Positions 35,677 to 59,031 of a stretch of 64,000 bases of DNA are shown piece after piece. Made by a program: the position numbers and the translations under genes. The DNA comes from Mesostigma viride (taxonomy: Eukaryota > Streptophyta > Mesostigmatophyceae > Mesostigmatales > Mesostigmataceae), in NCBI GenBank assembly GCA_009746045.1, contig RPFO01000189.1, positions 150,800-214,799 of the forward strand. Reading direction: 5' to 3'. Position 1 is the first letter of the stretch. Each line of letters opens with the position of its first letter. The notes under the pieces were generated by a model. The model was not told the DNA's origin. It ran no database searches and saw nothing but the letters and a program-made list of their open reading frames with translations.

Positions 35677-36719
35677 GGGTGGTTTTACCGGATTAGGATA
35701 CATTTGCACGGCTTCAAATGTATCCTAAATGCACCATTGGCAAACATGGTTTCTGGACATGGTCGATATCATTAATATGTTTGGCAAGCATAATATGATC
35801 ATGCTTGCCAAAGATGTTGTCTCTTTTCATATTTCACACATATATTATCGGCCTCGGCGTGCCATGCTTCCACGTTTGTTGTCTCTTTTCATATATTGTG
35901 AATATGATCAATAAAATTCCAAACATGACCATGTTGGAGACTTCAAGTGGAGCATCATGATTACTGTTTTCACTATTACGTAACCCATGGTTCATGTTAA
36001 CATGGCATAATGAGCAATCCTATTGACCCCATGACTAATGGTGAAGTTAATAAAGTTACATCGTGGCACGTCACTATAGCATCAAGTTGCATCATTGTGC
36101 ATAAAGTAGTTTAGCACTGAGTTGGCATGCCAACACCAGGTACACTAAATAAATTAAAACCAGAATTGATAAACAACCCAGTATCCAAATACAGTATCCA
36201 TATATATGCAGGTCGTACTACAGGTACAGCCACGGCTGCCACGCGGCTTCTGCAGCGATCACGCTCTTTCTCCTAGACAATTGCTCTACTGGTCCCTACA
36301 GGTCGGTCGACTTGGACCATGATGCGTCAAGAACAGTTAATTGACCGACTTAAACAAGATGTTTGTCTACATGCAGCTGTCTGCACCTAACTAACGCGAA
36401 ACCGCGTGCTACCAAATATAGGGGCAAATGCATGAGTAACACATGTCAACGCACAACCGGTGGAAATCACGCGATACCAACCGCGGCAACAGTGGTGTGA
36501 ACATAGCGGGCACTGACATGCAAAAAAGCACCAGCAGCGGCATCAGTAGCAAATTGTAGTAGCGGAACAATAGCCACTACATCAATGCAACAACACATCA
36601 GCCCAGCAACACAGCAGCAGCATGACCGTAGCACAGCAGCAGCACAACTGTAGCACATCAACACGGCCGCATAGCAGGAGCACAAGTCAGCGCAGCAGCA
36701 ACTTAGTATGCCGATTCCT

Positions 36720-36761
36720 GAATTTCCTATCAGTGGACTATAGTCCATTGATAGGAAATTC
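36720..36761. repeat. 42-bp near-perfect palindrome in Tn-A
   Basis: Two 21-base arms (GAATTTCCTATCARTGGACTA and its complement) with one mismatch and no loop, in the CAG-rich stretch just beyond the stop codon of the minus-strand gene. It could form a 3'-end hairpin. Confidence 0.8.
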
Positions 36762-36978
36762 ACTAATAGGCAGTACTAGCTCAGCAGCACGGCAGCAATG
36801 CAGCAGTGCATCAACACAGCAGCACGACAGCAATACATCAGCGGCACGGCAGCAATGCAGCAACACATCAGCACAATAGCACAGCAGCAGTACGGCAGCA
36901 ATGCAGCAGCAATAGCATGGCAGCACAGCAGCAGCAGCAGCACATGAGCAGCTCAATGACAACAACGCTGCTTGCGCT

Positions 36979-38196
36979 TCAGCAGTCGTCGTCGTCGTCA
37001 TCGTCATCGGCAAGGATGAGCGCTCGCTTCCGACGCCGGGAGGCGCCTGCGTTGTTGTTCTCCGCCACAACGTCGCTGGGTGGAACCATCTCGCGCAATC
37101 GAGCCTCGGCCAGGGTGATATCCGGCGCTTGCAACGCAGGGACGACCACACCGGGGCACCCGCAGATCTGTGCCTCCAGCTCGTGGAGAGGCACGCAAGA
37201 AACCGCGTCCTCCTCCCAACGGGCACCCCAGTACATGGCTACCATGTCGTTTTGCGTGTCGACAACAGCGACACGACCATGGTACCTGCCGTCCCGGCTT
37301 TCGGTGCGACCGTCCGCGGATGTCACACGCTCCGACGCCCAATGACACACGACTTGCCCTACGAGGTTGCGGCTGCCACTCTTGACCTGCAGCGTTACGC
37401 CTTCCCAGCATGCCTTCGCCATGCCGACGATGCCCTTCGAGCATTCAGCATCTTGCCACTTCACGACCGGGTGTTCCGCGTCATAGGGCACCTCCTTCAG
37501 CGCCTTTAGGCACTCCTTGGTGAGCTTTTCGTTCGCACCCAAGGAGACTCCATGGGGCGGCTGACCTCGCTTGCCCACCACTTGTGTCAAGACGAGGTCT
37601 GAGGCGGTGATGATCACCGTGTGCGCCGCAGTGGTTGGCGGATGGGGCCATTGCGCAATGTCTGTATTCCACGGGTGCCACGTGTCATGCAAATGCTTAG
37701 CGCGGTATACAAAGAGCTCAATAGAAGGTTGGCCGCCATCCTCCTTCGCAACCACCTCCTTGATGATGCCAACGAGGACTGGAGTCCACGTGAGCTTCGA
37801 GTTGCAGAGAATACCAGCTGAAGGGTGCCAGTATAGAACAGCGGAGCCTTTCTCAACGCCTTGCATGCGCTTCAAGTAAGCGACCTTGGCTGCCATGGCC
37901 CTGTCTTCTGCCGCCCATTCCTGCTGTGTGTGGCCATCATGACGAACTCGGTCTACCAGCGGGGTGACGCGCACCGCCTCTGCGTCGACCAACGCCATGA
38001 AGTGCTCTTCTTGCGTCGGTGGTGGTTCAGGCGCTGCATCGTGCTCACGCAGGGCGGAGATGTCCGCGCGAGATGGCCACGGCAAAGGGCGCCACTCCTC
38101 AGGCACCTCCTCAGGGGCATGTGGGACTTGACTTGCGAAAAAAGGCCTTGTTTGGCTTGATGGTGTCGGGCGGAAAGTACCACTGCCAGATGCCAT
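36979..38196 (-). CDS. Tn-A protein with unassigned conserved domain
   Basis: 405 codons. Residues about 116-365 match the Tn-B protein strongly (GSAVLYWHP; FVYRAKHLHDTWHPW; CWEGVTLQV; HGRVAVVDT; VAMYWGARWEE; ICGCPGVVVPALQA). A block with HGxVAxVDT...VAMxWGAxWEExAV has the look of a small beta-barrel such as Tudor or PWWP, but this is inference. The C-terminus is basic (SRRRKRALI) followed by eight Asp, echoing the Tn-B tail. Upstream at 38510-38111, another frame is coding-like (SMKVHHAVFFQVQG, PRCGKAMTQPYRFDAEGRP), so the true protein may be longer with a frameshift or intron at 38,111-38,196. Confidence 0.75.
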   Translation of the reverse strand: MASGSGTFRPTPSSQTRPFFASQVPHAPEEVPEEWRPLPWPSRADISALREHDAAPEPPPTQEEHFMALVDAEAVRVTPLVDRVRHDGHTQQEWAAEDRAMAAKVAYLKRMQGVEKGSAVLYWHPSAGILCNSKLTWTPVLVGIIKEVVAKEDGGQPSIELFVYRAKHLHDTWHPWNTDIAQWPHPPTTAAHTVIITASDLVLTQVVGKRGQPPHGVSLGANEKLTKECLKALKEVPYDAEHPVVKWQDAECSKGIVGMAKACWEGVTLQVKSGSRNLVGQVVCHWASERVTSADGRTESRDGRYHGRVAVVDTQNDMVAMYWGARWEEDAVSCVPLHELEAQICGCPGVVVPALQAPDITLAEARLREMVPPSDVVAENNNAGASRRRKRALILADDDDDDDDC

Positions 38197-38515
38197 GGGG
38201 CAACTTCTCGACCCTTGTTTTGATCGACTCCAGCTCCTTCCCCAGAAACTCCATGTTCAATGGTGCGAAGGCTGGGGTGTCCTGCAACATCGGAATGCGG
38301 TCTGGATCCACAAGTCGGACGCCAAACAGCGGCCGCCCCTCCGCATCAAACCTGTATGGCTGTGTCATCGCCTTCCCGCACCGTGGCGCGCCTTCCTGTC
38401 GAGTCCCCGCGGGCTGCCACGGCGTCTTTTGGGACTCCGTGGTCCGGTAGGACAACCAGGTCTCTGTGTTGCCCTGTACCTGGAAGAAGACGGCGTGGTG
38501 CACCTTCATTGAGCG
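38111..38515 (-). CDS. Probable N-terminal part of the Tn-A unassigned protein
   Basis: An open frame with non-repetitive composition (WLSYRTTESQKTPWQPAGT, FGVRLVDPDRIPMLQ, LPHGIWQWYFPPDTIK) that overlaps the start of the 405-codon ORF in another frame. Beyond 38,515 it runs into a GC-rich minisatellite, where open reading is uninformative. Confidence 0.5.
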   Translation of the reverse strand, partial: RSMKVHHAVFFQVQGNTETWLSYRTTESQKTPWQPAGTRQEGAPRCGKAMTQPYRFDAEGRPLFGVRLVDPDRIPMLQDTPAFAPLNMEFLGKELESIKTRVEKLPHGIWQWYFPPDTIKPNKAFFRKSSPTCP

Positions 38516-38519
38516 ACCG

Positions 38520-39540
38520 CGTTTTTCAGGCACCGGCTGTGCCGCTCCGCCGCTCCGCCGCTCCGCCGCCCGCCGGCTGCGCCGCCGGCCCGCCGCGCGC
38601 CGGCTGCCCCGCCCCGTAGCCCGTCGACAGGCTGCCCCGCCCCGCCGCATGCCAGCTGCGCCGGCCCGCCGCCCACGCGCGCCGGCAGCGCCGTTGGCCC
38701 CCCGCGCGCCGACGGCCCTGCCCCGCCGCCCGTTGACAGCCCCGCCCCGCCGCATGCCAGCTGCGCCGGCCCGCCGCCCATGCGCGCCGGCAGCGCCGCT
38801 GGCCCCCGCGCGCCGACGGCCCTGCCCCGCCGCCCGTCGACTGCCCCGCCCCGCCGCCCGTCGACAGCCCTGCCCCGCCGCATGCAGGCTGCGCCGCCGC
38901 TGCCACCTCGCTGCGCGCTGGCTGCGCCACCTCGCCGCCCGCCGACGGCGCCGCCCCGCCGCGCACCGGCTGCCCCGCCCCGCCGCCTGTCGACTGCCCC
39001 GCCCCGCCGCATGCCAGCTGCGCCGGCCCGCCGCCCACGCGCGCCGGCAGCGCCGCTGGCCCCCCGCGCGCTGACGGCCCTGCCCCGCCGCCCGTCGACT
39101 GCCCCGCCCCGCCGCCCGTCGACAGCCCCGACCCACCGCATGCCAGGTGCGCCGGCCCGCCGCCCGCGCGCGCCGGCAGCGCCGCTGGCCCCCCGCGCGC
39201 CGACGGCCCTGCCCCGCCGCCCGTCAACAGCCCTGCCCCGACGCCCGTCGACAGCCCCGCCCCGCCGCATGCCAGCTGCGCCGGCCCGCTGCCCACGCGC
39301 GCCGGCAGCGCCGCTGGCCCTGCCCCGCCGCCCGTCGACTGCCCCGCCCCGCCGCCCGTCGACAGCCCTGCCCCGCCGCATGCCAGGTGCGCCGGCCCGC
39401 CGCCCGCGCGCACCGGCAGCGCCGCTGGCCCCCCGCGCCGACGGCCCTGCCCCGCCGCCCGTCGACAGCCCCGCCCCGCCGCATGCCAGCTGCGCCGGCC
39501 GGCCGCCCATGCGCGCCATGCGCTTCGCAGGTCCATTGGG
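38520..39540. repeat. GC-rich minisatellite in Tn-A
   Basis: Repeats built from CCGCCCGTCGACAGCCCCGC, CCGCATGCCAGCTGCGCCGG and CGCGCCGGCAGCGCCGCTGG in mixed order, about 1 kb. Open in several frames on both strands purely because it lacks A/T. Confidence 0.9.
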
Positions 39541-39696
39541 ATCATGAGGCCTGCGCAGAATCTCACCTCGGAGGCCCGTGCTACTTCTAGTAAGATGCTT
39601 GCATTTTCAATGCGTCACCTATATGCAGGCATAGAGGGTGGTACATGGCGCTAGACTCATCAAGGGATAGGAGCCATGCCCTCAGCAATTACTCAC

Positions 39697-39738
39697 CTCC
39701 TGGCCCTTGCTGTTGCGGTCTCGGATGAAGATGATGGT
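39697..39738 (-). pseudogene. Captured exon resembling CFAP299 (b)
   Basis: A 14-codon, phase 0/0 exon TIIFIRDRNSKGQE between TGTAG and GTGAGT. Together with the exon at 40472-40428 it matches, from memory of the family, the conserved core of the cilium protein CFAP299. It lies inside Tn-A; no following exon of that core (expected to encode a GYIDY-type motif) was found. Confidence 0.5.
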
Positions 39739-39742
39739 CTAC

Positions 39743-40427
39743 ACGCCGCCGCATGCAAACAAGGAATGAGAGACAAAGCCGTGCGAGGCCAATATGGGCA
39801 CAGTGAGAGAAACAAGTCGACGCGAACCTACATCACGAGTGTCAGCGAAGGGGACCCATGGGAGAAGTCTCCCTCCCATGGTATCATTCACGGACACACG
39901 CAGCGGCCATGGGAACAGCCAAAACAGCAGGTTCACACACGCAAGGGCAACGACCTGCAGTGCCTGACCAGCATGTCGGTCAGTTGTGATTGGCAAGGCA
40001 GAGCCACACACACCAGGTACACGCTGCATGGGCAGGGAAGACGCTCTTACATGAGAAAAAGCGAGGAAACGTGCGCGAGAAGGATATTAAGAGCGATCCG
40101 CGCTAGAAGGATGCTACAATAGCATCATATATTCAAGAATTAGCAAAGAAAGATGTAGAAAAGAGACAAAAGAAAGAAATACGAGAGAAAGCAAAGACAG
40201 GGAGCTGCCAAACAGGGCAGACAAAAGGTTACGAGCGGCAAGAGTTGTGAACGCTGCACTTGATTGCTTTCTCTGACTTGTCAACTGCGAAGAGTGACTG
40301 ACTTACCTCTCTGGAAATGGTATGCTCAGCATCCCATGGTAATGAAATGGTGAGCTATGCTGTCAGACATGCCTATATAACATAGCTACCCTAGGGTCCT
40401 AATACAAAACTAGAAATCAAACCATAC
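39743..40427. other. Intron-like spacer between the two captured exons
   Basis: 685 bp with no coding character. If the exons were captured together, this is the host intron. Confidence 0.45.
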
Positions 40428-40472
40428 CGTGAGTTTCCCGGCTCGCACGGCCTCCTCCCTTTGTGCCGACGC
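40428..40472 (-). pseudogene. Captured exon resembling CFAP299 (a)
   Basis: A 15-codon, phase 0/0 exon ASAQREEAVRAGKLT between TTTGCAG and GTATGG. Its phase and protein sequence lead straight into TIIFIRDRNSKGQE of the next exon. Inside Tn-A, so probably a host gene piece picked up by the transposon. Identification rests on family memory. Confidence 0.5.
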
Positions 40473-40614
40473 CTGCAAACACAACGGGCCGTGGAGGAGG
40501 GTGGAAAGGTGGGCAAGTGTGGAGGAGTTTGGGGGGGACCGGGTTGAGCAGCGGTGGGGGAAAGATGTGCCGGTCATGATGTTGTCAACTACAGCTGTTG
40601 TATCGTGATTCACC

Positions 40615-40920
40615 TTCAATAAGTCTACTGTTCTACATCCGGTGGTGGATGGACACAAGCAATAAAGGCCCCGCCCACAACTCAGATTTCTTTAGAAAAT
40701 CTACTGATCTACATTCGATGGCGCCTTCACAGAAGCAGGAAACTCCGCCCACCGGTCAAATGTGACGCCCAACAAAGCCCCAACTTATTTCTTCAAGAAG
40801 TATACTGTTTTACATCCGGTAGTGCTTGGACAGAAGCAATATGTAAAGCCCGCCCACAAATCGGATTTCTTTACGAAAAACCTGTTTTACATTCGATGGG
40901 GTCTTGACAGATTCAAGCAG
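40615..40920. repeat. About four diverged 80-100-bp tandem units
   Basis: Each has a TCTACTGNTYTACATYCGRTGG core, a GACAGAAGCA stretch and CCCGCCCAC. Confidence 0.65.
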
Positions 40921-40974
40921 CAATACTCGTTTCTACCTGCGTGCGACTGCAGCGGCCGAGTGCTGCAACTTGCC

Positions 40975-42240
40975 TTCACGTCCCAGTCTTCACGTGTCAG
41001 TCCTGGTCTTCACGTCTTCACGTCTTCACGTCTTCACGTCTTCACGTCTTCACGTCTTCACGTCTTCACGACTTCACCTGAACTTGCGGCGTATCGTATC
41101 TTTGATACCTTGCATGCACGTCTTCACGTCTTCACGTCTTCACCGCGTCTTCACCTGTCTTCACCACGTCTTCACGTCTTCGCGTCTTCACGTCTTCACG
41201 GCTTCACCTGAACACCTGAACTTCACCTGAACTTGCCGTATCGTGTCTTCACGTCTTCACGTCTTCACGTCTTCACGTCTTCACCGCGTCTTCACCTGTC
41301 TTCACCACGTCTTCACGGCTTCACGGCTTCACGTCTTCACGGCTTCACCTGAACACCTGAACTTCACCTGAACTTGCCGTATCGTGTCTTCACGTCTTCA
41401 CGTCTTCACGTCTTCACGTCTTCACGTCTTCACCGCGTCTTCACCTGTCTTCACCACGTCTTCACGTCTTCGCGTCTTCACGTCTTCACGGCTTCACCTG
41501 AACACCTGAACTTCACCTGAACTTGCCGTATCGTGTCTTCACGTCTTCACGTCTTCACGTCTTCACGTCTTCACCGCGTCTTCACCTGTCTTCACCACGT
41601 CTTCACGGCTTCACGGCTTCACGTCTTCACGGCTTCACCTGAACACCTGAACTTCACCTGAACTTGCCGTATCGTGTCTTCACGTCTTCACGTCTTCACG
41701 TCTTCACGTCTTCACGTCTTCACCGCGTCTTCACCTGTCTTCACCACGTCTTCACGGCTTCACGGCTTCACGTCTTCACGGCTTCACCTGAACACCTGAA
41801 CTTCACCTGAACTTGCCGTATCGTGTCTTCACGTCTTCACGTCTTCACGTCTTCACGTCTTCACGTCTTCACCGCGTCTTCACCTGTCTTCACCACGTCT
41901 TCACGGCCTCACGGCTTCACGTCTTCACGGCTTCACCTGAACACCTGAACTTCACCTGAACTTGCCGTATCGTGTCTTCACGTCTTCACGTCTTCACGTC
42001 TTCACGTCTTCACGTCTTCACCGCGTCTTCACCTGTCTTCACCACGTCTTCACGGCTTCACGGCTTCACGTCTTCACGGCTTCACCTGAACACCTGAACT
42101 TCACCTGAACTTGCCGTATCGTGTCTTCACGTCTTCACGTCTTCACGTCTTCACGTCTTCACGTCTTCACCGCGTCTTCACCTGTCTTCACCACGTCTTC
42201 ACGGCTTCACCTGAACACCTGAACTTTGCGTATCGTATCT
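40975..42240. repeat. CTTCACGT minisatellite with higher-order repeat
   Basis: Basic 8-bp unit CTTCACGT arranged in higher-order units of 141 or 149 bp, each starting at GCCGTATCGTGTCTTC (41235, 41376, 41525, 41666, 41815, 41964, 42113). The two lengths differ by exactly one 8-bp unit. Confidence 0.92.
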
Positions 42241-42391
42241 TTCATACATTGCATCATTTGCATGCCTTGGAGCTGCACGTCTTCAAGCAGTGTCACCCAG
42301 TTCCCGCTTGATTCAAATGCACTTCGCGCTTGAATTCGTGACTTCGCCCCGCTCAAGGTGGAAAGAATGATGGGCACTAGCCACGGGAACT

Positions 42392-42739
42392 ATGCCCGAT
42401 GCTGATAGCCGAAGCGATGACATGGACGAATTGATTGATTTGTGTTATGCCGGGGACGATTGTAGAAAATGGGTGCTAGGAAAGAAATCTGGTGCCATGA
42501 AAGTAGATTTTTTGGCCGGTGCAAACCACCAATGCGCCGGCCGATGTGGCAAGGTCCTGCACGGCAGCCAGAGCGCACCCAGCCAGAGCGTACCCAGCCG
42601 CTGCCGCCGCCGACCCCCGTACTGGTGGGCGTGGAACAGACGATGAGAGAGATGCAACGAGCTATGGAGAACCAAAGCAAGAAGGTTGAAGAGCTTGGTT
42701 TGCAGCTGCGTCAAGAGGTGCAGAAACAAGTGGTCCAGC

Positions 42740-42778
<39 letters not shown>

Positions 42779-42815
42779 TGCAGCAGCAACTGCAGCAGCA
42801 ACTGCAGCAACAACT

Positions 42816-42887
<72 letters not shown>

Positions 42888-43023
42888 CTTCAGTTCCCGC
42901 AGGCAGCGTCGGCAATGTCGCAGTTTCCACAGGCATTGTCGGCACTGCAGCAGTTTTCGCAGGGACCGTCGGCAGCAGAGCAGTTCCCGCAGGGATCATC
43001 GGTGGTGCAGCAGTTCTTTGTGA
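42392..43023 (+). CDS. Tn-A PHD-like / poly-Q protein (frameshifted)
   Basis: Starts MPDADSRSDDMDELIDLCYA with a partial zinc-finger motif (CYAGDDC...GANHQCAGRCGKVLHG) matching the Tn-B PHD-like protein. The frame is lost shortly after HG, before the expected Cys pair. A second frame, open to 43,023, holds a coiled-coil stretch (VEQTMREMQRAMENQSKKVE) and a long CAG-encoded Gln tract (42739-42888). It is either spliced or a decayed copy. Confidence 0.6.
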
Positions 43024-43084
43024 GTCATTCGTGTAGTGTTGAGTGGGTGGGGTGGGGTGTGTGTGGGGGGGGGGTGTAGGGGGG

Positions 43085-43990
43085 TTTGACTGTGTGACTG
43101 CGTGGCTGCTTGGCTGGAAAGGAGGGTGCGTGGCTGTGTGGCTGCGTGGCTGCGCTGCTGCGTGGCTGCGTGGCTGCGTGGCTGCGTGGCTGCGTGGCTG
43201 CGCTGCTGCGTGGCTGCGTGGCTGCGTGGCTGTGTGGCTGCGTGGCTGCGTGGCTGCGTGGCTGCGCTGCTGCGTGGCTGCGTGGCTGGAAAGGAGGGTG
43301 CGTGGCTGTGTGGCTGCGTGGCTGCGCTGCTGCGTGGCTGCGTGGCTGCTTGGCTGGAAAGGAGGGTGCGTGGCTGTGTGGCTGCGTGGCTGCGCTGCTG
43401 CGTGGCTGCGTGGCTGCGTGGCTGCGTGGCTGCGTGGCTGCGTGGCTGCGTGGCTGCGTGGCTGCGTGGCTGCGTGGCTGGAAAGGAGGGTGCGTGGCTG
43501 TGTGGCTGCGTGGCTGCGCTGCTGCGTGGCTGCGTGGCTGCGTGGCTGCGCTGCTGCGTGGCTGCGTGGCTGCGTGGCTGTGTGGCTGCGTGGCTGCGCT
43601 GCTGCGTGGCTGCGTGGCTGCGTGGCTGCGTGGCTGCTTGGCTGGAAAGGAGGGTGCGTGGCTGTGTGGCTGCGTGGCTGCGCTGCTGCGTGGCTGCGTG
43701 GCTGCGTGGCTGGAAAGGAGGGTGCGTGGCTGTGTGGCTGCGTGGCTGCGCTGCTGCGTGGCTGCGTGGCTGCGTGGCTGCGTGGCTGCTTGGCTGGAAA
43801 GGAGGGTGCGTGGCTGTGTGGCTGCGTGTAGCTGCGCTGCTGCGTGGCTGCGTGGCTGCGTGGCTGCGTGGCTGCGTGGCTGCGTGGCTGCGTGGCTGGA
43901 AAGGAGGGTGCGTGGCTGTGTGGCTGCGTGGCTGCGCTGCTGCGTGGCTGCGTGGCTGCGTGGCTGCGTGGCTGGCTGGGGGGGGGGGGG
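43085..43990. repeat. GTGGCTGC minisatellite with higher-order pattern
   Basis: 8-bp unit GTGGCTGC with periodic GCTGCTGC and TGGAAAGGAGGGTGC variants that mark higher-order units of mixed length. Open frames on both strands (TrpLeuArgGlyCys and ArgSerHisAlaAla types) are artefacts. Followed by a G-run. Confidence 0.92.
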
Positions 43991-44099
43991 TGCCGGGTGC
44001 GTGGATGCGTGGATGTGTGGCTGGGTGGGTGCGTCACTGCGTGGCTGGCTGGCTCTGTGGCTGCGTGGGCGGCTGGATGGCCGGGTCAGCGTGGCTTCG

Positions 44100-44762
44100 T
44101 GTTCAATGGGATGCTAATATGTTGTTGCCTTTGGATGCCACAGTTCATGGATTCTTTTGTTCACATGCAGGTGCTGCCGTCTTCCCCATCGACGTCGTCA
44201 AGACCGATGTCGCCAAGAAGGATGATGCAATCACTCTCGGCCATGTTTAACTCATGTGGGCCTTCATGGCCATACGGGAAATATTATTGAATCAGTTCTT
44301 TGACACTGAGTTGGCACTACGCAACACCTTTGATGCACATGAGTGCAGGGCGCATGTGTTGAAACCATGCAACCATGGCGATCCCTCAAAAAGTTTGGTT
44401 ATGTAATAAGTGACACAATTATTCCGGACGTATGATGGCCCAACGTCCTGTAAGGTTGAGTTGTCTTGGAGGAGGAGCGTGATGACCGCGGAAGCCGCGT
44501 GGGTGTCTGTAGTGCTATATCTTGAAGATGTACGGTCTTGGAAGAGTTATGGTCTTGGAATCATATAATAATGAACTTGGAATAAAGTTGCGGGCAGCCT
44601 TCAATTGGCATATGTTGTCTCATTGATGTTGTCTCATTGCGTTAATGGGTCAATTGTCTTAGTTTATATAATGTATATCTTGGGAAACTCATTGCTTCAA
44701 TAAAATGCATGCTAGGCGCAATCAACCCCCACAAACACATCTGAAAACTGCACAGTGCATCA
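44100..44762 (+). other. Tn-A right end: possible last exon and 3' region
   Basis: CACATGCAG at about 44,170 could be an acceptor for a last exon (two frames stay open for 26-40 codons). The rest is AT-rich with no gene, up to the subterminal repeats. Confidence 0.35.
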
Positions 44763-44809
44763 AATGTATCCTAGACAAAAAAATGTATCCTAATCCGGTA
44801 AAACCACCC

Positions 44810-45122
44810 TAGGAGATGTCTTTGGAATACCGATCGAGATTCACCAGTTTGGAACGGATGACTGGGTGGTTGGCGAGTTCCTCCATTGTTCGCTGGGGAG
44901 GTAGTTGGCTGAGTTGGCGGTTCAGAGCCCACCGGTACCGCCACGTTTTAATAATCTTCGTAGATTTTCGAGTGCAGCGCCGGACCACGCGTTCTTCCAT
45001 TGGTTCATAATCCTCCACGCTTGCTTGCAAAGTAAAGACGGGTTCAGACTCTTATCCCATTGGTCCGCGGACGCTGTCCTGTTGTATATGCGCTGGCATA
45101 TGCGCTGGCATGTGCTTTCCAA
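44810..45122 (-). pseudogene. Broken minus-strand gene, upstream piece
   Basis: Ends NLDRYSKDIS, then TA of a codon completed on the far side of Tn-A: removal of Tn-A and one TAG gives ...DISYYNLK... in one frame. Two overlapping frames (one with NPSLLCKQAWRIMNQWKNAW) suggest a frameshift near 44,930. Function unknown. Confidence 0.6.
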
Positions 45123-45802
45123 ATTTTATTCTTCCTTCCAATCGTGCGTGTCCATTTGGAATCAAATGCCTCTGATGCGGATCTGAATATCGGATATTCT
45201 TCTTCCCTCCACAGATTCTGTCGTTTCATTTTTTCGTGGGACGCTGTCCAGTAGTATATGCGCTGTCATGTCCTTTCCAGAATGTCCTTTCCGAATGTTT
45301 TGTTCCGTTTTTGTATCCAATCGTGCGTCTCCATTTCGATTCCATGACTTGGCGTTAATTTTTTCCTCCAATCATGCGTTTCGAATCTGATTGCCTTTCA
45401 TGCGAATCTTTTTCCCTCTACGGGTTCTGTCCATGACTTGCCGTTTCATTTTTTCGTTCAATCCTGAGTGTTCATTCCTGCGTGTTTATAGCCTTTCCCT
45501 ATGATTTGGCGTTTCATCTCTGATGTCGTACACTGTGTACGACCCATATCAGTATATCCGTCCTGCCACAGACGAGTTTCCGTGTTGTACACTTGTCTTC
45601 TCCCGGTTAGGGCTAAGTTTTGCAAAAAAACTAAGTCCTAAGTCGAAACAATTTTTTCCTGCTGTTACACAGCCATTTTAAGTCACCCAGGTAAAGCTTT
45701 TGTGCTGAAGCCGTATGTCTCATCAAAACACCCTGTATCTAGACATGCACCTCTGTTTTCACATGCCGACCTCATCAAATCCCATGGCACGCATTTCTGC
45801 AT
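45123..45802. other. Spacer with imperfect internal repeats
   Basis: AT-rich. Diverged copies of a block with GGACGCTGTCC...GTATATGCGCTG (near 45,068 and 45,237) and of CCAATCGTGCGTNTCCATTT (near 45,138 and 45,318). No supported gene. Confidence 0.5.
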
Positions 45803-47126: not shown

Positions 47127-47390
47127 CGTCTCCGGTTACCATGGCATCGCCAACTTACACCTACAGTCATCCGCAAAAGTTCTCCTGTCCGGGGAGTGAT
47201 GCAAGCCTTTCGGATTTGGTACTAGATAAATCACTCGAGATCTGTGTGTAGGAGTACTACACACGTGTCTGCACGCGAGACTTGTTCAGTCTCGCACCGT
47301 GAGACGGGCTGAACACATTGTCATTATATATTCAACCAGAACTGTGGGAAACTTTGCAAACTGAAGACGTGTTAGTTAACGCCAAGCGCA

Positions 47391-47878
47391 GGGTGGTTTG
47401 TTTGGGTTAGGACAGATTTGTCCATTTAGGACAGTCCTGCAGCCAAAGCGTGAAAACATTAGCTTATTGGTGCCTTACGCATGCTTGCTTCTGCATGATA
47501 ATTTTTTGAATGGGATTCAACTGTTTTTATGTGTATATAACTGCCGTCTTGTTTCACGTGTATGTATGTGAATACACAAATGTTCTCAGCATTGAGTTAT
47601 GCACAATGCACATCAATTAATTTATTAAAAGTAATTAGTAATCATGTAGACTGCGTCACGTGAGCATAGATTAAGTGAGACAACTATTCCTTGACGCAAG
47701 GCGGTCCAACGTCGTGTAAGTACAAGCCGTTACTAGTTGTATGAGAAATAAATCGTTGTCCTGATTAGCCAAGATGTTGCACTACCACAATACCCATGAT
47801 GTTGCTCTTAATAATAATGCCATGTCCTATAATGCATGAATGGGCGGTGATCTAAGCATGTCATAAAACATCCTATTC
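47391..47878. other. Tn-B left end, non-coding
   Basis: TIR and subterminal repeats, then AT-rich sequence without a supported gene. Confidence 0.6.
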
Positions 47879-47879
47879 C

Positions 47880-48315
47880 AGCGAGCAGCGGGCAGCGGGC
47901 AGCGCGCAGCGGGCAGCGGGCAGCGGGCAGCGCGCAGCGGGCAGCGGGCAGCGGGCAGCGGGCAGCGGGCAGCGGGCAGCGGGCAGCGGGCAGCGCGCAG
48001 CGGGCAGCGCGCAGCGGGCAGCGGGCAGCGGGCAGCGGGCAGCGGGCAGCGGGCAGCGGGCAGCGGGCAGCGGGCAGCGGGCAGCGGGCAGCGGGCTGCG
48101 GGCAGCGGGCAGCGGGCAGCGGGCAGCGGGCAGCGGGCAGCGGGCAGCGGGCTGCGGGCAGCGGGCAGCGGGCAGCGGGCTGCGCGCAGCGGGCAGCGGG
48201 CAGCGGGCAGCGGGCAGCGGGCAGCGGGCAGCGGGCAGCGGGCAGCGGGCAGCGGGCAGCGGGCTGCGGGCAGCGGGCAGCGGGCAGCGGGCAGCGGGCA
48301 GCGGGCAGCGGGGCA
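47880..48315. repeat. (GGGCAGC)n satellite in Tn-B
   Basis: About 60 copies of a 7-bp unit with GCGCAGC and GGGCTGC variants, just beyond the stop codon of the minus-strand gene. Minus ORFs across it are artefacts. Confidence 0.93.
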
Positions 48316-48406
48316 AAGTACTGCCAAAAAAAGGGACCCTGCTTTGGGCTGGGCGGAGCCAGCGGGTTACTCTAGTAATAATTAGTCACAAGGTCCTGTT
48401 GGGACG

Positions 48407-49740
48407 CTAACGCGGTGGCGCAAATTCGTATGGCACATACATGCGTGGCGCCTCGCGTGGCGCAGATTCACATGGCACATACATGCGCGGCGCCTCGCGT
48501 GGCGCAGATTCACATGGCACATACATGCGCGGCGCCTCGCGTGGCGCAGATTCACATGGCACATACATGCGCGGCGCCTCGCGTGGCGCAGATTCGCATG
48601 GCACATACATGCGCGGCGCCTCGCGTGGCGCAGATTCGCATGGCACATACATGCGCGGCGCCTCGCGTGGCGCAGATTCGTACGGCACATACATGCGCGG
48701 TGCCTCGCGTGGCGCAGATTCGCATGGCACATACATGTGCGGCGCCTCGCGTGGCGCAGATTCACATGGCACATACATGCGCGGCGCCTCGCGTGGCGCA
48801 GATTCGCATGGCACATACATGCGCGGTGCCTCGCGTGGCGCAGATTCGCATGGCACATACATGCGCGGCGCCTCGCGTGGCGCAGATTCGCATGGCACAT
48901 ACATGCGCGGCGCAGATTCGCATGGCACATACATGCGCGGCGCCTCGCGTGGCGCAGATTCACATGGCACATACATGCGCGGCGCCTCGCGTGGCGCAGA
49001 TTCGCGTGGCACATACATGCGCGGCGCCTCGCGTGGCGCAGATTCGTATGGCACATACATGCGCGGCGCCTCGCGTGGCGCAGATTCGCATGGCACATAC
49101 ATGTGCGGCGCCTCGCGTGGCGCAGATTCACATGGCACATACATGCGCGGCGCCTCGCGTGGCGCAGATTCGCATGGCACATACATGCGCGGTGCCTCGC
49201 GTGGCGCAGATTCGCATGGCACATACATGCGCGGCGCCTCGCGTGGCGCAGATTCGCATGGCACATACATGCGCGGCGCAGATTCGCATGGCACATACAT
49301 GCGCGGCGCCTCGCGTGGCGCAGATTCGCATGGCACATACATGCGCGGTGCCTCGCGTGGCGCAGATTCGCATGGCACATACATGCGCGGCGCCTCGCGT
49401 GGCGCAGATTCGCATGGCACATACATGCGCGGCGCAGATTCGCATGGCACATACATGCGCGGCGCCTCGCGTGGCGCAGATTCACATGGCACATACATGC
49501 GCGGCGCCTCGCGTGGCGCAGATTCGTATGGCACATACATGCGCGGCGCCTCGCGTGGCGCATAGTCTGGTGCCGGCACCGCTGCCGCTGTTGCCGCAGG
49601 GGGCGCACTGGCTGCCGGCACCGCTGCCGCCGCTGCCGTGGTGGGCACACCGGCTGCCGCCACCGCTGCTTTGGTGGGTGCGGCGGCTGCCGCCCCCGCT
49701 GCCACTGCCGCCGCCGCCTCTTTATGCTTCTGCAGCAGTC

Positions 49741-49771
<31 letters not shown>

Positions 49772-51563
49772 CTGCTGCAGCTTTGTCATCATGGCATTAA
49801 ATTGCTGCTGTTGCTGTTGCTGTTGCTGCTTCATCATGCTGTCGAATTGCTGCAGCAGCGCTGCCATCCCCTTCGAATTTTCAGCCGGGGCGTCAGGCTG
49901 CTTGGCAGGCGCTGAGCCGTTTTCTGAGCGGCGCTGGCGCTTGACTGGTTTCGTCGCCGCAGCTTCTTTGGCAGGCTGCTTGCTCACGATGCGCTTGCCG
50001 CGCCCATGCACGTTGGTGACCTCCTGCAACGCGGGCAGCCCTGCAATTTGTGGGTCGGGCATGTCAGAGTCTTGTGTTATGCAAGCTGGCAGACGTGGCA
50101 GCGTAGCCGGGTATTTCGCCAAGAGGGCCGATCCTGGAAACTGCTCAGCGGACAAGATGAATGGCGGTGGGCCAGCACTCAATATCTGGGGCAGCAGGTC
50201 CGCCTTGTTCTTGATGGCCCAACTCATCACCGCCTGCATGTCCTCATTCCAAGCGGATGATGGGAGAACGCCCTTGTGCTCCAACCCCAGGGTAGTGGGA
50301 AACGTGGTGGCATTCTTGTCGTTGACAACGATGACCACTGCGTCGAAAAATCCGATCGCGGACGGTCGCCTGGTTGGGCTGCCTTTGAGTCGGTCGAGCA
50401 AGTTTTTAAATTTCTTGTAGCGGCTCTGCCTCACAAAATGCGCGCAGATTGACGAGCTCGCGATTGCCCCCACTACCACCCCCACATGAGGCCATTCGGG
50501 GATTGCAAGGGCCACGATATCATCCTCGCTGTCGCTGGTGGAAGCACCGCCTGGTGTTTTGTGCATCCCCGGCCCTGCCGGTGGAGGAGAAAAAGCTAGT
50601 TCTTTTCTTGTGTCGCCGACATCGAAATGACGCGACGCCGAAGCCCGAAAGGTACCAGCTGCAGGGCCCGGGGTGTTCTCCTTCTTGGAGGCGTCGCGCT
50701 CAACCACGGGAATGTGCGCGCCGCCAACAGCATGCTTGCCAACCGTGGGGCCCATCGCAGCACGCAAAGCTGCATCACCTTGGCCGCTCTTGTCCTGATT
50801 GCCATCACCCATCGCACCCTTGCCTGCGCCGTTCTTTTCCTCCTCGCCATCACCCATCGCACCATAGCCAGCGCCGTTCTTTTCCTCCTCGCCATCACCC
50901 ATCGCACCATTGCCGCCTGCGCCGTTCTTTTCCTCCTCGCCATCACCCATCGCACCATTGCCGCCTGCGCCGTTCTTTTCCTCCTCGCCATCACCCATCG
51001 CACCATTGCCGCCTGCGCCGCTCTCCTCCTCGACGCCACCACCAAGCGCAACACCGCCTGGGCCGTTCTTCTCCTCGACGCCACCACCCGTTGCATCATC
51101 ATCGACATGACCCTCGTCATGCAATATTATCACCAGAACCCAGCTCACCATCGTCGACCCTTCCATCCACGACTCTGGCTAGCTTAACGAGTTTCCGTGA
51201 TGGAACCTTAACGACCTTGCCCTTGCCGCCCAGCGAATAAAGAGCACCAAGGCCGGCCAGTTGGGCGTCGACCACCTTTTCCTTAAAATCGACAGGCGAG
51301 GCCTCCTTACTGATGGCGGTAGGCGGCCAAGGGCCGCCACACTCCTGGCAGGTCCACTCTGTGCCATCCTCACCCGCCGATGCATCCCTAAACATCCCGG
51401 TGCACAGCCCATGCAAGTGCTTGCCACACTGGCCTGAGCATGGATGGTTGGCTCCGCCCAGCAGCTCATTTTTGTCGACACTATCAAATCCGGTTGCATG
51501 ATCAGCGCCGGGCAATTTCTTGCATCTATCGCCTGCGTAGCAGGGGCCGCTTGACCCCTGCAT
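48407..51563 (-). CDS. Tn-B PHD-like, poly-Q, repeat-tailed protein
   Basis: Begins MQGSSGPCYAGDRCKKLPGA at 51,563. The first about 80 residues have a PHD-type pattern: CX5C, CX3C, HGLC (HX2C) and WTCQEC (W before CX2C). A frame change near 51,140 (frameshift or small intron) leads into the 919-codon ORF: acidic GNGAMGDGEEEKNGA repeats, an unassigned domain (IPEWPHVGVVVGAIAS; FFDAVVIVVNDKNATTFPTT; MSWAIKNKADLLPQI), a basic stretch (KPVKRQRRSEN, a likely nuclear signal), Gln-rich coiled coil, Ala/Pro linker and about 27 tandem copies of MYVPCESAPREAPR. PHD fingers usually bind histone tails; a chromatin-targeting role is inference. Confidence 0.7.
48418..49562 (-). repeat. About 42-bp coding minisatellite (MYVPCESAPREAPR)
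   Basis: About 27 units in frame with the preceding protein, some missing the PREA half. Synonymous and Cys/Tyr/Arg variants are shared between blocks, which points to internal duplications. Confidence 0.9.
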
Positions 51564-51764
51564 TCTTCGCTTGCTACAGATTTAACCACCGGAAAATAGA
51601 CAAAGATTGCACGCAACCTTCCAATAATGCCGGCTGCGATTTAACCTTCGTTTGCTGGGCGCTGCACGCTGCAATGTATCGAGTCAATTTGCGCGGGATC
51701 TGGAACTTTGAATAGGTATATGTTTAGGCAAGAGGCTGCGGCGTCATTTGGCTGCAGCTGGGTA

Positions 51765-52460
51765 ACTACTTGCGTCTTGCGGCCAAGATACGCAGCCTGC
51801 CTCGAGAGGGCTGCGTATCTTTGCCGCAGCCTGCCTCACCAGCTAAAAACCTTGCGGCCAAGATACGCAGCCTGCCTCCTCGAGGATATCCTCGAGGAGG
51901 CAGGCTGCGTATCTTGGCCGCAAGGTTTTTAGCTGGTCATTTGGCTGCCAGGGTAACTACTTGCGTCTTGCGGCCAAGATACGCAGCCTGCCTCGAGAGT
52001 CGAGGCAGGCTGCGTATCTTGGCCGCAAGACGCAAGTAGTTACTTCCCCAGCTGCCGAGGCAGGCTGCGTATCTTTGCCGCAGCCTGCCTCACCAGCTAA
52101 AAACCTTGCGGCCAAGATACGCAGCCTGCCTCCTCGAGGATATCCTCGAGGAGGCAGGCTGCGTATCTTGGCCGCAAGACGCAAGTAGTTACTTCCCCAG
52201 CTGCCGAGGCAGGCTGCGTATCTTTGCCGCAGCCTGCCTCACCAGCTAAAAACCTTGCGGCCAAGATACGCAGCCTGCCTCCTCGAGGATATCCTCGAGG
52301 AGGCAGGCTGCGTATCTTGGCCGCAAGGTTTTTAGCTGGTGAGGCAGGCTGCGGCAAAGATACGCAGCCCTCTCGAGGCAGGCTGCGTATCTTGGCCGCA
52401 AGACGCAAGTAATTACTTCCCCAGCTGCCGAGGCAGGCTGCGTACATTTTGGCGGCAAGT
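51765..52460. repeat. Cluster of long perfect palindromes between Tn-B genes
   Basis: Built from a 26-bp unit (GGCAGGCTGCGTATCTTGGC...) in alternating orientation. Perfect inverted repeats: 51838-51937 (100 bp), 51953-52043 (44-bp arms, 3-base loop), 52105-52178 (74 bp) and 52212-52369 (158 bp); three have the centre CTCGAGGATATCCTCGAG. It lies in the divergent intergenic region of Tn-B, the place of a shared promoter. Confidence 0.93.
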
Positions 52461-52870
52461 TCCCCAGCTGTTCGCTGCTTAGGCAAGTTGTTGCAACGAC
52501 TTCGCCACGTGACTGCCAACAGGGGCGCCTGCGTTCAAGTCTTCAGTGCGTGCCCTGGCGGCACATCATTATTACGTAAATAGCCGTGAAGCTTTCGGTA
52601 CCTTAGCAGTTTATAGTTGGATTTATGGCAGACAAGGCTGACTGCAGGATATTATTTTGTGGTTTAACAAGTGACGCCGAAATGAATAGGCACGGAGCCG
52701 AAAAATAGCCGACGTAGTTGATTTGGAGACGAGTTGTTAGCATTGATGACAAAAATGGGATTAGGTTTACACAGGACAGTAATAGGCGCTGAGCTGCTTA
52801 CTCTTATGAGGTCCGGCATCCATTCAGCGCCGGGGGAGTCCTGCTTTTGGTTTAGGTTGAAACTTTTATA
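52461..52870. other. Upstream region of Tn-B plus-strand gene
   Basis: No repeat or ORF of note; probably part of the promoter region. No TATA box I would defend. Confidence 0.45.
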
Positions 52871-52871
52871 A

Positions 52872-55800
52872 ATGTTAGAGATAAAGGCTAGGATAGCAAA
52901 ATGGCCGAACATGTCGAGTGGGACGGAGGTATTGTCTCCGACTCGGACGACGATGACGATTTTGCGTACCATGACGGAGGGCTCGGTCGTGCTATACTGG
53001 CATCCCACGTGCCAAATGCTCTGCAACACCGACGTCCCCTGGCCCCCCATGTTGGTGGGGGTGGTGAAGAAGGTAGAGCAGCCTGCCGATGAGGGGGGCA
53101 GCGAGCCTCACCTGGTCCTCTCTGTATACCGTGCCAGGAGCATGACCGATGCTTGGCATCAGTGGGACCCGAACAGCGCCACATGGCCTCTGCCGAGCAA
53201 GTCGTCCGCAAACTCCCACACAGTCACCATCGCAGCATCCGAGGTCATCCTCACCTATTGGATCCCGGCGAAGAAGCCCACCTCGCGCCACTTGGTGTCT
53301 TTGGATGCCAAGAAAAAGCTGTCTGCTGCGTGCCTGACCGCGCTCAAGCAGGTGCCAAGGGACGCAGGTCACCCGACGGTTGACTGGCAACTAGCTTCAA
53401 CTCCCAAGGGTGTGGTGCACATGGCTGAACGTTGCTGGCAAACGATCTTGGAGCAGGTGATGGGTGGCAAGCTCTGCCTGGTAGGACAACTTGTGTGCAG
53501 CTATGAGATTGTGCACGAGTCCGTCGGCGGCCGCACAGTGAACCGTCCTAGAAGATTCCATGGTCAAGTGGCAGCTGTGGACACGGAACATGGCAAGGTG
53601 GCTATGTTTTGGGGTGCTCAATGGGAAGAGCTGGCGGTGACGTGTGTGGACCTCCCAGAATTGGGGAAGAAAATCTGTGGATGCCCCGGTGTGTCGGTCC
53701 CTCCTCTGCAAGCGTCTGAGATCGCCGTTGCCGAGTCCCGCTTACGTGCGGAGGTGCACGCTGCGCTGACCAGCGCAACTGCGCGCAGCTCGCCTGAGGC
53801 AGCGCGCGGCACGGCCGACACAACTAAGCGCAAGCCGCCTGCGCCTGCAGCAACCAGCACAGCCACGCGCAACCCACGTGCGGTGGCGACCAACTTGCGC
53901 GCAGCAGTGCGCGCCCTGAATGATAAGGCTGCAAGTGACTTGCGTGCGCCCGCGCGTGCGGCCACCGGCGCGGCTGCACCTGCCAACTCGCCTGCGCCTG
54001 CACTCACGACCACCGGCGCGGCTGCACCTAGCAAGTCGCCTACGCCCGCGCGCGCGGCAGCCGGCGTGGCTGCACCTGCCAACTCGCCTGCGCCTGCACT
54101 CACGACCACCGGCGCGGCTGCACCTAGCAAGTCGCCTACGCCCGCGCCTGCGGCCCCCGGCGCGGCTGCACCTGCCAACTCGCCTGCGCCCGCGCCTGCG
54201 GCCACCGGCGTGGCTGCACCTGCCAACTCGCCTACGCCCGCGCCTGCGGCCACCGGCGCGGCTGCACCTGCCAACTCGCCTGCGCCTGCGCGCGCGGCAG
54301 CACCTGCCAACTCGCCTGCGCCTGCGCGCGCGGCCACCGGTGTGGCTGCACCTGCCAACTCGCTTGCGCCTGCGCGCGCGGCAGCACCTGCCAACTCGCC
54401 TGCGCCTGCGCGCGCGGCCACCTGCGCGGCTGCACCTGCCAACTCGCTTGCGCCTGCGCGCGCGGCAGCACCTGCCAACTCGCCTGCGCCTGCGCGCGCG
54501 GCCACCTGCGCGGCTGCACCTGCCAACTCGCCTACGCCCGCGCCTGCGGCCACCGGCGCGGCTGCACCTGCCAACTCGCTTGCGCCTGCGCGCGCGGCAG
54601 CACCTGCCAACTGGCCTGCGCCTGCGCGCGCGGCAGCACCTGCCAACTCGCTTGCGCCTGCGCGCGCGGCAGCACCTGCCGACTCGCCTGCGCCTGCGCG
54701 CGCGGCCACCGGCGTGGCTGCACCTGCCAACTCGCCTACGCCCGCGCCTGCGGCCACCGGCGTGGCTGCACCTGCCAACTCGCCTACGCCCGCGCCTGTG
54801 GCCACCGGCGCGGCTGCACCTGCCAACTCGCTTGCGCCTGCGCGCGCGGCAGCACCTGCCAACTCGCCTGCGCCTGCGCGCGCGGCCACTGGCGTGGCTG
54901 CACCTGCCAACTTGCCTACGCCCGCGCCTGCGGCCACCGGCGCGGCTGCACCTGCCAACTCGCTTGCGCCTGCGCGCGCGGCATCACCTGCCAACTCGCC
55001 TGCGCCTGCGCGCGCGGCCACCGGCGTGGCTGCACCTGCCAACTCGCCTACGCCCGCGCCTGCGGCCACCGGCGCGGCTGCACCTGCCAACTCGCTTGCG
55101 CCTGCGCGCGCGGCAGCACCTGCCAACTCGCCTGCGCCTGCGCGCGCGGCAGCACCTGCCAACTCGCTTGCGCCTGCGCGCGCGGCAGCACCTGCCGACT
55201 CGCCTGCGCCTGCGCGCGCGGCCACCGGCGTGGCTGCACCTGCCAACTCGCCTACGCCCGCGCCTGCGGCCACCGGCGTGGCTGCACCTGCCAACTCGCC
55301 TACGCCCGCGCCTGTGGCCACCGGCGCGGCTGCACCTGCCAACTCGCTTGCGCCTGCGCGCGCGGCAGCACCTGCCAACTCGCCTGCGCCTGCGCGCGCG
55401 GCCACTGGCGTGGCTGCACCTGCCAACTTGCCTACGCCCGCGCCTGCGGCCACCGGCGCGGCTGCACCTGCCAACTCGCTTGCGCCTGCGCGCGCGGCAT
55501 CACCTGCCAACTCGCCTGCGCCTGCGCGCGCGGCCACCGGCGTGGCTGCACCTGCCAACTCGCCTACGCCCGCGCCTGCGGCCACCGGCGCGGCTGCACC
55601 TGCCAACTCGCTTGCGCCTGCGCGCGCGGCAGCACCTGCCAACTCGCCTGCGCCTGCGCGCGCGGCCACCTGCGCGGCTGCACCTGCCAACTCGCTTGCG
55701 CCTGCGCGCGCGGCAGCACCTGCCAACTCGCCTGCGCCTGCGCGCGCGGCCACCGGCGTGGCTGCACCTGCCAACTCGCCTACGCCCGCGCCTGCGGCCA

Positions 55801-56393
55801 CCGGCGCGGCTGCACCTGCCAACTTGCTTGCGCCTGCGCGCGCGGCAGCACCTGCCAACTCGCCTGCGCCTGCGCGCGCGGCCACCGGCGTGGCTGCACC
55901 TGCCAACTCGCCTACGCCCGCGCCTGCGGCCACCGGCGCGGCTGCACCTGCCAACTCGCTTGCGCCTGCGCGCGCGGCAGCACCTGCCAACTCGCCTGCG
56001 CCTGCGCGCGCGGCCACCTGCGCGGCTGCACCTGCCAACTCGCTTGCGCCTGCGCGCGCGGCAGCACCTGCCAACTCGCCTGCGCCTGCGCGCGCGGCCA
56101 CCGGCGTGGCTGCACCTGCCAACTCGCCTACGCCCGCGCCTGCGGCCACCGGCGCGGCTGCACCTGCCAACTTGCTTGCGCCTGCGCGCGCGGCAGCACC
56201 TGCCAACTCGCCTGCGCCTGCGCGCGCGGCCACCTGCGCGGCTGCACCTCCCGACTCGCCTGCGCCTGCGCGCGCGGCAGCCGGCGCGGCTGAAGAAGAT
56301 ATGTTGTCTGATTCCCGTCGTCGCCGGGCACACCGTTACATAGTGTGTCCGGACAGTGATAGCGATGGAGCCCCGGAGGCTATGGAAACATGA
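52872..56393 (+). CDS. Tn-B protein with unassigned conserved domain and Pro/Ala repeat
   Basis: The 1,173-codon frame starts at 52,872, but the ATG at 52,901 in another frame gives a better N-terminus (MAEHVEWDGGIVSDSDDDDD), needing a one-base shift near 52,980. From GSVVLYWHP (residue about 36) to about 290 it matches the Tn-A protein along its length (VYRARSMTDAWHQW; ALKQVPRDAGHPTVDWQ; CWQTILEQV; HGQVAAVDT; VAMFWGAQWEE; ICGCPGVSVPPLQA). Residues about 355-1135 are an Ala/Pro tandem repeat. The tail (SRRRRAHRYIVCPDSDSD) again resembles Tn-A. Function unknown. Confidence 0.75.
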   Translation: MLEIKARIAKWPNMSSGTEVLSPTRTTMTILRTMTEGSVVLYWHPTCQMLCNTDVPWPPMLVGVVKKVEQPADEGGSEPHLVLSVYRARSMTDAWHQWDPNSATWPLPSKSSANSHTVTIAASEVILTYWIPAKKPTSRHLVSLDAKKKLSAACLTALKQVPRDAGHPTVDWQLASTPKGVVHMAERCWQTILEQVMGGKLCLVGQLVCSYEIVHESVGGRTVNRPRRFHGQVAAVDTEHGKVAMFWGAQWEELAVTCVDLPELGKKICGCPGVSVPPLQASEIAVAESRLRAEVHAALTSATARSSPEAARGTADTTKRKPPAPAATSTATRNPRAVATNLRAAVRALNDKAASDLRAPARAATGAAAPANSPAPALTTTGAAAPSKSPTPARAAAGVAAPANSPAPALTTTGAAAPSKSPTPAPAAPGAAAPANSPAPAPAATGVAAPANSPTPAPAATGAAAPANSPAPARAAAPANSPAPARAATGVAAPANSLAPARAAAPANSPAPARAATCAAAPANSLAPARAAAPANSPAPARAATCAAAPANSPTPAPAATGAAAPANSLAPARAAAPANWPAPARAAAPANSLAPARAAAPADSPAPARAATGVAAPANSPTPAPAATGVAAPANSPTPAPVATGAAAPANSLAPARAAAPANSPAPARAATGVAAPANLPTPAPAATGAAAPANSLAPARAASPANSPAPARAATGVAAPANSPTPAPAATGAAAPANSLAPARAAAPANSPAPARAAAPANSLAPARAAAPADSPAPARAATGVAAPANSPTPAPAATGVAAPANSPTPAPVATGAAAPANSLAPARAAAPANSPAPARAATGVAAPANLPTPAPAATGAAAPANSLAPARAASPANSPAPARAATGVAAPANSPTPAPAATGAAAPANSLAPARAAAPANSPAPARAATCAAAPANSLAPARAAAPANSPAPARAATGVAAPANSPTPAPAATGAAAPANLLAPARAAAPANSPAPARAATGVAAPANSPTPAPAATGAAAPANSLAPARAAAPANSPAPARAATCAAAPANSLAPARAAAPANSPAPARAATGVAAPANSPTPAPAATGAAAPANLLAPARAAAPANSPAPARAATCAAAPPDSPAPARAAAGAAEEDMLSDSRRRRAHRYIVCPDSDSDGAPEAMET
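53940..56275 (+). repeat. Ala/Pro-coding minisatellite with higher-order duplications
   Basis: Units of 36 and 48 bp (CCTGCCAACTCGCCTGCGCC...) in frame throughout. Larger blocks repeat almost exactly with periods of about 516 bp (54532 vs 55048) and 348 bp (55564 vs 55912). The frame is open on both strands because units are multiples of three and stop-free. Confidence 0.9.
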
Positions 56394-57178
56394 AGTCGCG
56401 GTTGCTACCATTGTTGCTACCAATGATTGCTATGTGTGCACCATGGCTGCCAACATTGCTGCTTCCTTTGCTGCTTCTCCGCTGATATGCCGTGCTTTTG
56501 ATTCACTCTCTGCCATGCATGCCAGTATAGTGCTGCCACCATTGTCATGATGTAACTTGTCAACACCAATGCATGTTCTGATTCTGATGTGATTGATTAT
56601 ATTCCTGGCCTGCATGAGTCTGTTGAGGTTGTTTGTCGCTGCTGCGGCTGCTATGACCATTACTAGTGTGCTCATGTGAGTTTTTTGCCATGTCCATTTG
56701 CGCAGTCATGGAGCATTTCAAGGTTTGCCCGAGATTTACGAGACCCAAGTGTCAGTCATTTTCCGCGAAGCCGCGATATAATCCCTGACAGAAACTGGCA
56801 AAAACCACATGGAACATATGCAGAATCCTCCTTGATAATGTCTCATGTAGTAGATACATTCCAGCCTTTGCAATTACAATCACGTCACTAAATTTTTAAG
56901 TATGCAAAATTACAAGCTGTGAGTGCAATTGTCTCTACTCATCATAAGATACCAGCTTGACAATCATGAATGCCCATTTGGTTACAGCATATAAGGCAAC
57001 TTGTCATTATATAACACAATTATTGACTTGAAACTCCTCGACCAATGCAAAAATTTGCCCAAACCTTCTATCAAACTATTTTGGGAAGTCCACAGCATCC
57101 AAAAAACACATTTTTCAAATTTTCATTTAGGACAGACCTGCAGCCTCCCAAATCTGTCCTAACCCAAACAAACCACCC
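56394..57178. other. Tn-B right end, non-coding
   Basis: AT-rich 3' region of the plus-strand gene, then subterminal repeats and the TIR. No other gene seen. Confidence 0.6.
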
Positions 57179-58803: not shown

Positions 58804-58882
<79 letters not shown>

Positions 58883-58929: not shown

Positions 58930-59031
58930 GTGGTAACACTTGGCACTTTCCTTTCTTGTTCAGTAGCTTATATTGCTTTAATTGCTGCTTGGCCACTTGG
59001 CTGGCTGTAGCAGATCTGAACAGAGGCCATC

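Follow-up and report, generated by a model that had tools for sequence, protein, structure and literature searches.

Tn-A and Tn-B, two diverged terminal-inverted-repeat elements of Mesostigma viride that share a divergent pair of genes

Introduction

PIF/Harbinger (PHIS) DNA transposons often carry two genes, one of which encodes an accessory protein (PMC4482050), and their mobility requires two proteins (PMC2836001). Here we describe Tn-A and Tn-B, two elements with terminal inverted repeats (TIRs) and 3-bp target site duplications (TSDs), which carry the same divergent pair of genes. Gene 1 encodes a PHD-like finger and a Gln-rich coil, and gene 2 encodes a conserved domain of about 250 residues. 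Both elements lie in a window of 64,000 nt from Mesostigma viride, an early streptophyte alga (contig RPFO01000189.1 of assembly GCA_009746045.1, forward-strand positions 150,800–214,799).

The TSD of the VANDAL elements, which are Mutator-like elements (MULEs), is longer than 3 bp. These plant DNA transposons encode extra proteins (vanB/vanC), among them the anti-silencing factor VANC, and are described as having no TIRs or short degenerate ones (PMC6446971). They use a MULE transposase, and their likeness to Tn-A and Tn-B is one of working mode. The same is true of TransibSU, of the RAG1-RAG2 type, in which a PHD-finger accessory protein stands beside the transposase of a TIR transposon (PMC4411706); its 5-bp TSD, Transib transposase and Kelch-type propeller set it apart. 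The MULE-related Rehavkus elements also contain a PHD finger and a minisatellite, but the finger is within the transposase, the TSD is 9 bp, and they come from Arthropoda and Annelida (PMC6446971).

EnSpm/CACTA was ruled out, as it needs CAC..GTG termini (PMC12730594) whereas the present elements end in GGGTGG; an earlier reading made from the letters alone (the sequence-only reading) had drawn this contrast too. The cysteine-rich finger prompted a comparison with Kyakuja-Dileera-Zisupton, which was ruled out by the 3-bp TSD, since Kyakuja-1/2_LB and Zisupton have TSDs of 7–8 bp (PMC12730594).

Results

Tn-A is 9133 bp long (nt 35677–44809) and is bounded by perfect 29-bp TIRs, the left one, GGGTGGTTTTACCGGATTAGGATACATTT, at nt 35677–35705 (plus strand) and the right one at nt 44781–44809 (minus strand). 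The TSD TAG flanks it at nt 35674–35676 and 44810–44812. Tn-B is 9788 bp long (nt 47391–57178), with perfect 30-bp TIRs at nt 47391–47420 (GGGTGGTTTGTTTGGGTTAGGACAGATTTG, plus strand) and 57149–57178 (minus strand), and its TSD GCA is found at nt 47388–47390 and 57179–57181. The sequence-only reading had proposed two elements of 9.1 and 9.8 kb with matching inverted ends, and the ends as well as both duplications are exactly where it placed them.

The sequence GGGTGGTTT occurs four times in the window, each time at one of the four proposed ends, while four or more copies arose in 0 of 100 shuffles. When the window was scanned for maximal perfect inverted pairs, 20 bp or longer and spaced 0.2–20 kb apart, a 3-bp direct repeat flanked only the Tn-A and Tn-B pairs among the 63 recovered. 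The motif TTAGGAYA lies close to the tip at both ends of each element. Of its 10 occurrences in the window, 7 are at or near these ends, and the remaining 3 belong to a unit present three times at 13–27 kb. A search for the related TAGGAYANATTT that tolerated one mismatch gave 9 sites, of which 6 are at element ends.

Deletion of Tn-A together with one TAG in silico yields an unbroken minus-strand open reading frame (ORF) of 258 residues across the junction, joining nt 35139–35676 to about 44813–45050. The ORF has no recognised domain, its sole Pfam match being under the cut-off at E 0.39, and may belong to the host or to another element. For Tn-B, the target repeat has another copy in the window, and this contains a paralogous empty site at nt 27894–27910 (minus strand). 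The site reads AGTTAACGCCAAGCGCATTGGCGTG and contains GCA once only, at nt 27894–27896. This repeat copy, at about nt 26240–27910 (minus strand), is 96% identical over 1662 bp to nt 57178–58828. The restored ORF and the single-GCA empty site demonstrate that Tn-A and Tn-B were inserted into formerly unbroken sequence, as genuine TIR elements that duplicate 3 bp of their target. The marks of a TIR (class II) DNA transposon, namely the inverted termini, the target site duplication and an empty site or restored ORF, were found.

The Tn-B target resembles a long terminal repeat (LTR) retrotransposon. A zinc knuckle is encoded in the ORF at nt 59020–60219 (22.2 bits against the Pfam cut-off of 20.8), and the ORF next to it gives an integrase-core match under the threshold. 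Two copies of the probable retrotransposon lie at nt 57182–61413 and 26240–27910, and the sequence common to both has Tn-B inserted about 17 bp from one of its ends.

By the Repbase rule, non-autonomous elements are joined if their TSDs are of equal length and the first 11 bp show at most one mismatch (PMC4455052). Tn-A and Tn-B are united by their genes instead, because their ends differ at positions 10 and 11. Among the matches listed in a tblastx comparison of the two, only the ends, low-complexity stretches and the two genes appear. The shared divergent gene pair, which had been claimed before, identifies the elements at the sequence level as two diverged members of one family.

Gene 2 of Tn-A (nt 36979–38578, minus strand) consists of an N-terminal region at about nt 38132–38578 and the conserved domain at nt 37084–37848. 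In Tn-B the gene lies in a stop-to-stop frame at nt 52872–56393 (plus strand); the domain, at nt 52980–53756, starts 36 codons into this frame and is followed by Pro/Ala/Thr-type repeats at nt 53958–56292. The two domains are identical at 131 of 260 residues (50%). By the NG86 method, nonsynonymous divergence (dN) is 0.39 and synonymous divergence (dS) is 1.62, which is near saturation; 77 fourfold sites show 61% difference, and the three codon positions differ by 0.34, 0.28 and 0.56 over 254 codons. The dN and dS values together with the codon-position pattern indicate purifying selection on gene 2. Conserved acidic residues are present inside the domain, and both products finish with a run of basic residues and then acidic ones.

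The N-terminal region of Tn-A gene 2, which the sequence-only reading had missed, has no counterpart found in Tn-B. The Tn-A frame also extends upstream into a minisatellite, and P0005, which like P0004 is a Mesostigma relative of Tn-A gene 2, has more N-terminal protein than gene 2 of Tn-B. In the predicted structure, the better-modelled half of the domain weakly matches Tudor domains, and the N-terminal half is without a confident model. A check for an RNase H fold had been suggested; none is named among the 50 structure matches listed, a list that excludes nothing. A sequence search of the PDB with gene 2 gave no match at E up to 1.

Gene 1 of Tn-A (nt 42386–43015, plus strand) comprises a truncated PHD-like finger at nt 42443–42565 and then the Gln-rich coil in another frame. 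Gene 1 of Tn-B (nt 49566–51563, minus strand) encodes the finger at nt 51261–51563, a middle region at about nt 50141–50803, also overlooked earlier and with no counterpart found in Tn-A, and the coil at about nt 49700–49870. A minisatellite at nt 48407–49565 (minus strand) is open in frame with its C-terminal part. The Tn-A finger and P0006, a close relative of the Tn-B finger gene, share a 45-residue stretch, CYAGxxCxK..GANHxCxGxCGKxLHG, with 20 of 45 residues identical (E 2e-10 in a single comparison).

The finger is named PHD-like only, because the scores of Pfam PF00628 (PHD) stay under its gathering score of 24 bits: the Tn-B exon reaches 17.3 bits (E 0.005) and P0006 14.6 bits (E 0.033), and P0007 gives no match at E 0.05. 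Structure prediction for gene 1 gave a mean predicted local distance difference test score (pLDDT) of 30, with no confident model for any part, and a PDB sequence search returned one chance-level match only, to YY1 (E 0.69). Between both genes of Tn-B, nested palindromes occupy nt 51762–52416.

Tn-A also contains two exons of a host gene, which had escaped the sequence-only reading. Exon 1 (nt 40428–40472, minus strand) and exon 2 (nt 39697–39738, minus strand) have GT-AG borders, counted by hand from the sequence; when spliced, 29 residues match DUF4464 (PF14713) with E 9.2e-8 and 32.3 bits against a cut-off of 27. DUF4464 is a family that we take to be CFAP299, a cilia-associated protein. 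The position of these exons inside the TIRs marks Tn-A, on its sequence, as a Pack-type element as well, into which a host gene fragment was captured. It resembles Pack-MULE and similar elements in its host exons and differs from them in carrying conserved element genes as well.

Against the Mesostigma protein models, each copy shows at least one frame change inside a gene, in Tn-A near nt 38130 in gene 2 and in Tn-B near nt 51120 in gene 1. These look like frameshifts, likewise not noticed before, and related models without them exist; alternatively, the models may mask them by unusual introns. Damaged copies seem to be common in this family, because P0005 also changes frame against Tn-A, at a second place.

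No transposase was detected by six-frame Pfam scans of Tn-A and Tn-B, with stops read as X, and neither a DDE transposase nor a Myb/SANT match was seen in these scans, which miss short exons: the two DUF4464 exons of Tn-A went unreported. The only matches, to DUF677 and to a herpesvirus glycoprotein model, fell in low-complexity sequence of Tn-B and were both under the cut-off. The earlier statement that no transposase is recognisable thus stands for these scans. Twenty further ORFs of the window, searched with E 0.01 as the limit, matched no transposase; read-through scans around the elements covered nt 26001–35676 on the minus strand only and nt 57179–64000 on the plus strand only. An NCBIfam search gave no match, and a PHROGs search gave matches at E 0.07–0.42 only. 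Tandem repeats cover 3322 of the 9133 bp of Tn-A and 4694 of the 9788 bp of Tn-B.

All relatives found for the two genes are EukProt models of Mesostigma viride, 89–100% identical over the aligned parts, and belong to clusters of 7 and 1 members for gene 2 and of 2, 1, 1 and 6 for gene 1. Both genes are thus multicopy in Mesostigma, and the Tn-B branch is recent. No relative of either gene was found outside Mesostigma by word-based searches of 5.8 billion proteins, which require shared exact words and similar length and in some cases scored only about 8000 top word-sharing candidates. Viral contigs gave no relative (39 and 27 pattern matches, unconfirmed by tblastn), nor did prokaryote genomes, searched with gene 2 only (27 pattern matches, also unconfirmed). 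Repeats of the Mesostigma genome are described with MITE-Hunter, LTRharvest and RepeatModeler (PMC7027972), and no description of this family is among the open-licence literature matches listed for Mesostigma and transposon or for PHD finger and transposon. Its designation as a new family, as first proposed, is fair within the searches made.

The elements resemble PIF/Harbinger in the 3-bp length of the TSD and in ends that start with GG or GGG and contain GTTTGTTTGG-like runs. They differ in the TSD sequence, TAG and GCA, as against TWA, or ANT, CWG and TNA in other 3-bp PHIS groups (PMC4482050), and in encoding finger and Tudor-like proteins where no DDE transposase or Myb/SANT match was found. 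The ends were compared with 17 published PIF/Harbinger ends (PMC2213677, PMC6327408) and with 3000 shuffles, ends of other superfamilies not being included as a control. The Tn-B end scored highest with MtPH-A5 and then AtPIF2; with GGG kept, its best score was reached by 44 of 3000 shuffles and its mean by 95, and with full shuffling by 10 and 14. For Tn-A the similarity is not significant with GGG kept (best 355, mean 343 of 3000), and full shuffling gave 59 and 50. The contrast with PIF/Harbinger drawn previously thus holds in part: the Tn-B end is closer to the published plant ends than most shuffles are, but the TSD sequences do not agree.

Repeats abound in the window. Three tandem copies of a 4.57-kb unit (approximate length), about 99% identical, occupy nt 13016–26750, within which nt 17100–17601 and 21661–22162 match part of the Tn-B target retroelement at 96%. 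Left of Tn-A, nt 28139–34985 contain nested direct and inverted repeats of 0.2–1 kb with about 93–100% identity and several palindromic pairs; here about nt 31887–31982 (minus strand) weakly match Rol_Rep_N, a rolling-circle replication initiator family (E 6.1e-4, 20.4 against 23.7 bits). The ORF at nt 10498–11028 contains a Pfam Salyut domain above the cut-off (E 3.6e-9), which lies beside a tandem repeat and may be repeat-driven.

Discussion

The account that we consider probable is that Tn-A and Tn-B are diverged, non-autonomous cut-and-paste DNA transposons with TIRs and 3-bp TSDs, which belong to a single family in Mesostigma. The finger protein, with its Gln-rich coil, and the Tudor/SH3-like protein would be accessory factors encoded by the elements, able to read chromatin or to bind the subterminal TTAGGAYA repeats. 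In this way they might serve in target choice, in escape from silencing or in assembling the transposase at the ends. Catalysis would be provided in trans: a DDE transposase, possibly PIF/Harbinger-like, would come from an autonomous relative not seen here. Weak evidence hints that the gene pair reads chromatin marks; this hint and the failure to find a known transposase suggest that an unseen partner element may move both copies.

The sequence-only reading had left two options, an unknown transposition machinery or large non-autonomous elements. The latter fits better, because the copies look damaged, little sequence outside the repeats is unassigned and the Tudor match, though weak, was obtained; both copies are probably non-autonomous. 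The former was neither demonstrated nor refuted. Genes 1 and 2 could themselves carry out transposition and define a new superfamily, in which case one of them would contain a catalytic domain that profiles fail to recognise. The diverged elements keep both genes together, purifying selection acts on gene 2, the tblastx matches listed offer no other shared gene, the domain holds conserved acidic residues, and its N-terminal half and the entire gene 1 have no confident model. On the other hand, the better-modelled half of the domain points weakly to Tudor, the PHD-like finger is a domain of the reader type, and both elements jumped although no N-terminal region of gene 2 was found in Tn-B and no middle region of gene 1 in Tn-A. 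We regard this machinery as unlikely. Its fuller form, a new superfamily so far known only from an early streptophyte alga, in which a PHD-like finger protein and a Tudor-like protein whose catalytic part is unrecognised together move TIR elements with 3-bp duplications, is about as unlikely.

It is more doubtful that gene 2 is what remains of the C-terminus of a larger transposase. In this view both copies have lost the catalytic N-terminal part by deletion, and the Tudor-like part is the former chromatin-targeting tail. The upstream run of the Tn-A frame into the minisatellite, the 36 codons before the Tn-B domain and the longer N-terminus of P0005 would suit such a loss, but the six-frame scans revealed no catalytic remnant, and the stretch upstream in Tn-A consists of repeat and captured host exons.

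It is improbable that the pair has no part in transposition and entered the elements by a single acquisition, as host genes or as passive cargo. A captured host gene fragment does exist in Tn-A, and the searches outside Mesostigma found no homologue by which the genes could be recognised as element machinery; yet the same divergent pair persists in elements with 50% protein divergence, with gene 2 under purifying selection, and the relatives are multicopy. An origin of the ends by chance repetition or misassembly is scarcely credible even in a repeat-rich window, as the empty site of Tn-B and the restored ORF of Tn-A are decisive and only 2 of the 63 inverted pairs, those of Tn-A and Tn-B, have 3-bp flanking repeats.

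For accessory proteins of the kind favoured here, precedents exist in the RAG2-type PHD protein of TransibSU (PMC4411706) and in the anti-silencing VANC of VANDAL (PMC6446971). If it were true that a transposase is wholly absent, the family would represent a new catalytic machinery. With its PHD-like and Tudor-like proteins and no visible transposase, a family of this kind in an early-diverging streptophyte alga would lend itself to testing whether insertion is steered, or silencing counteracted, by such proteins.
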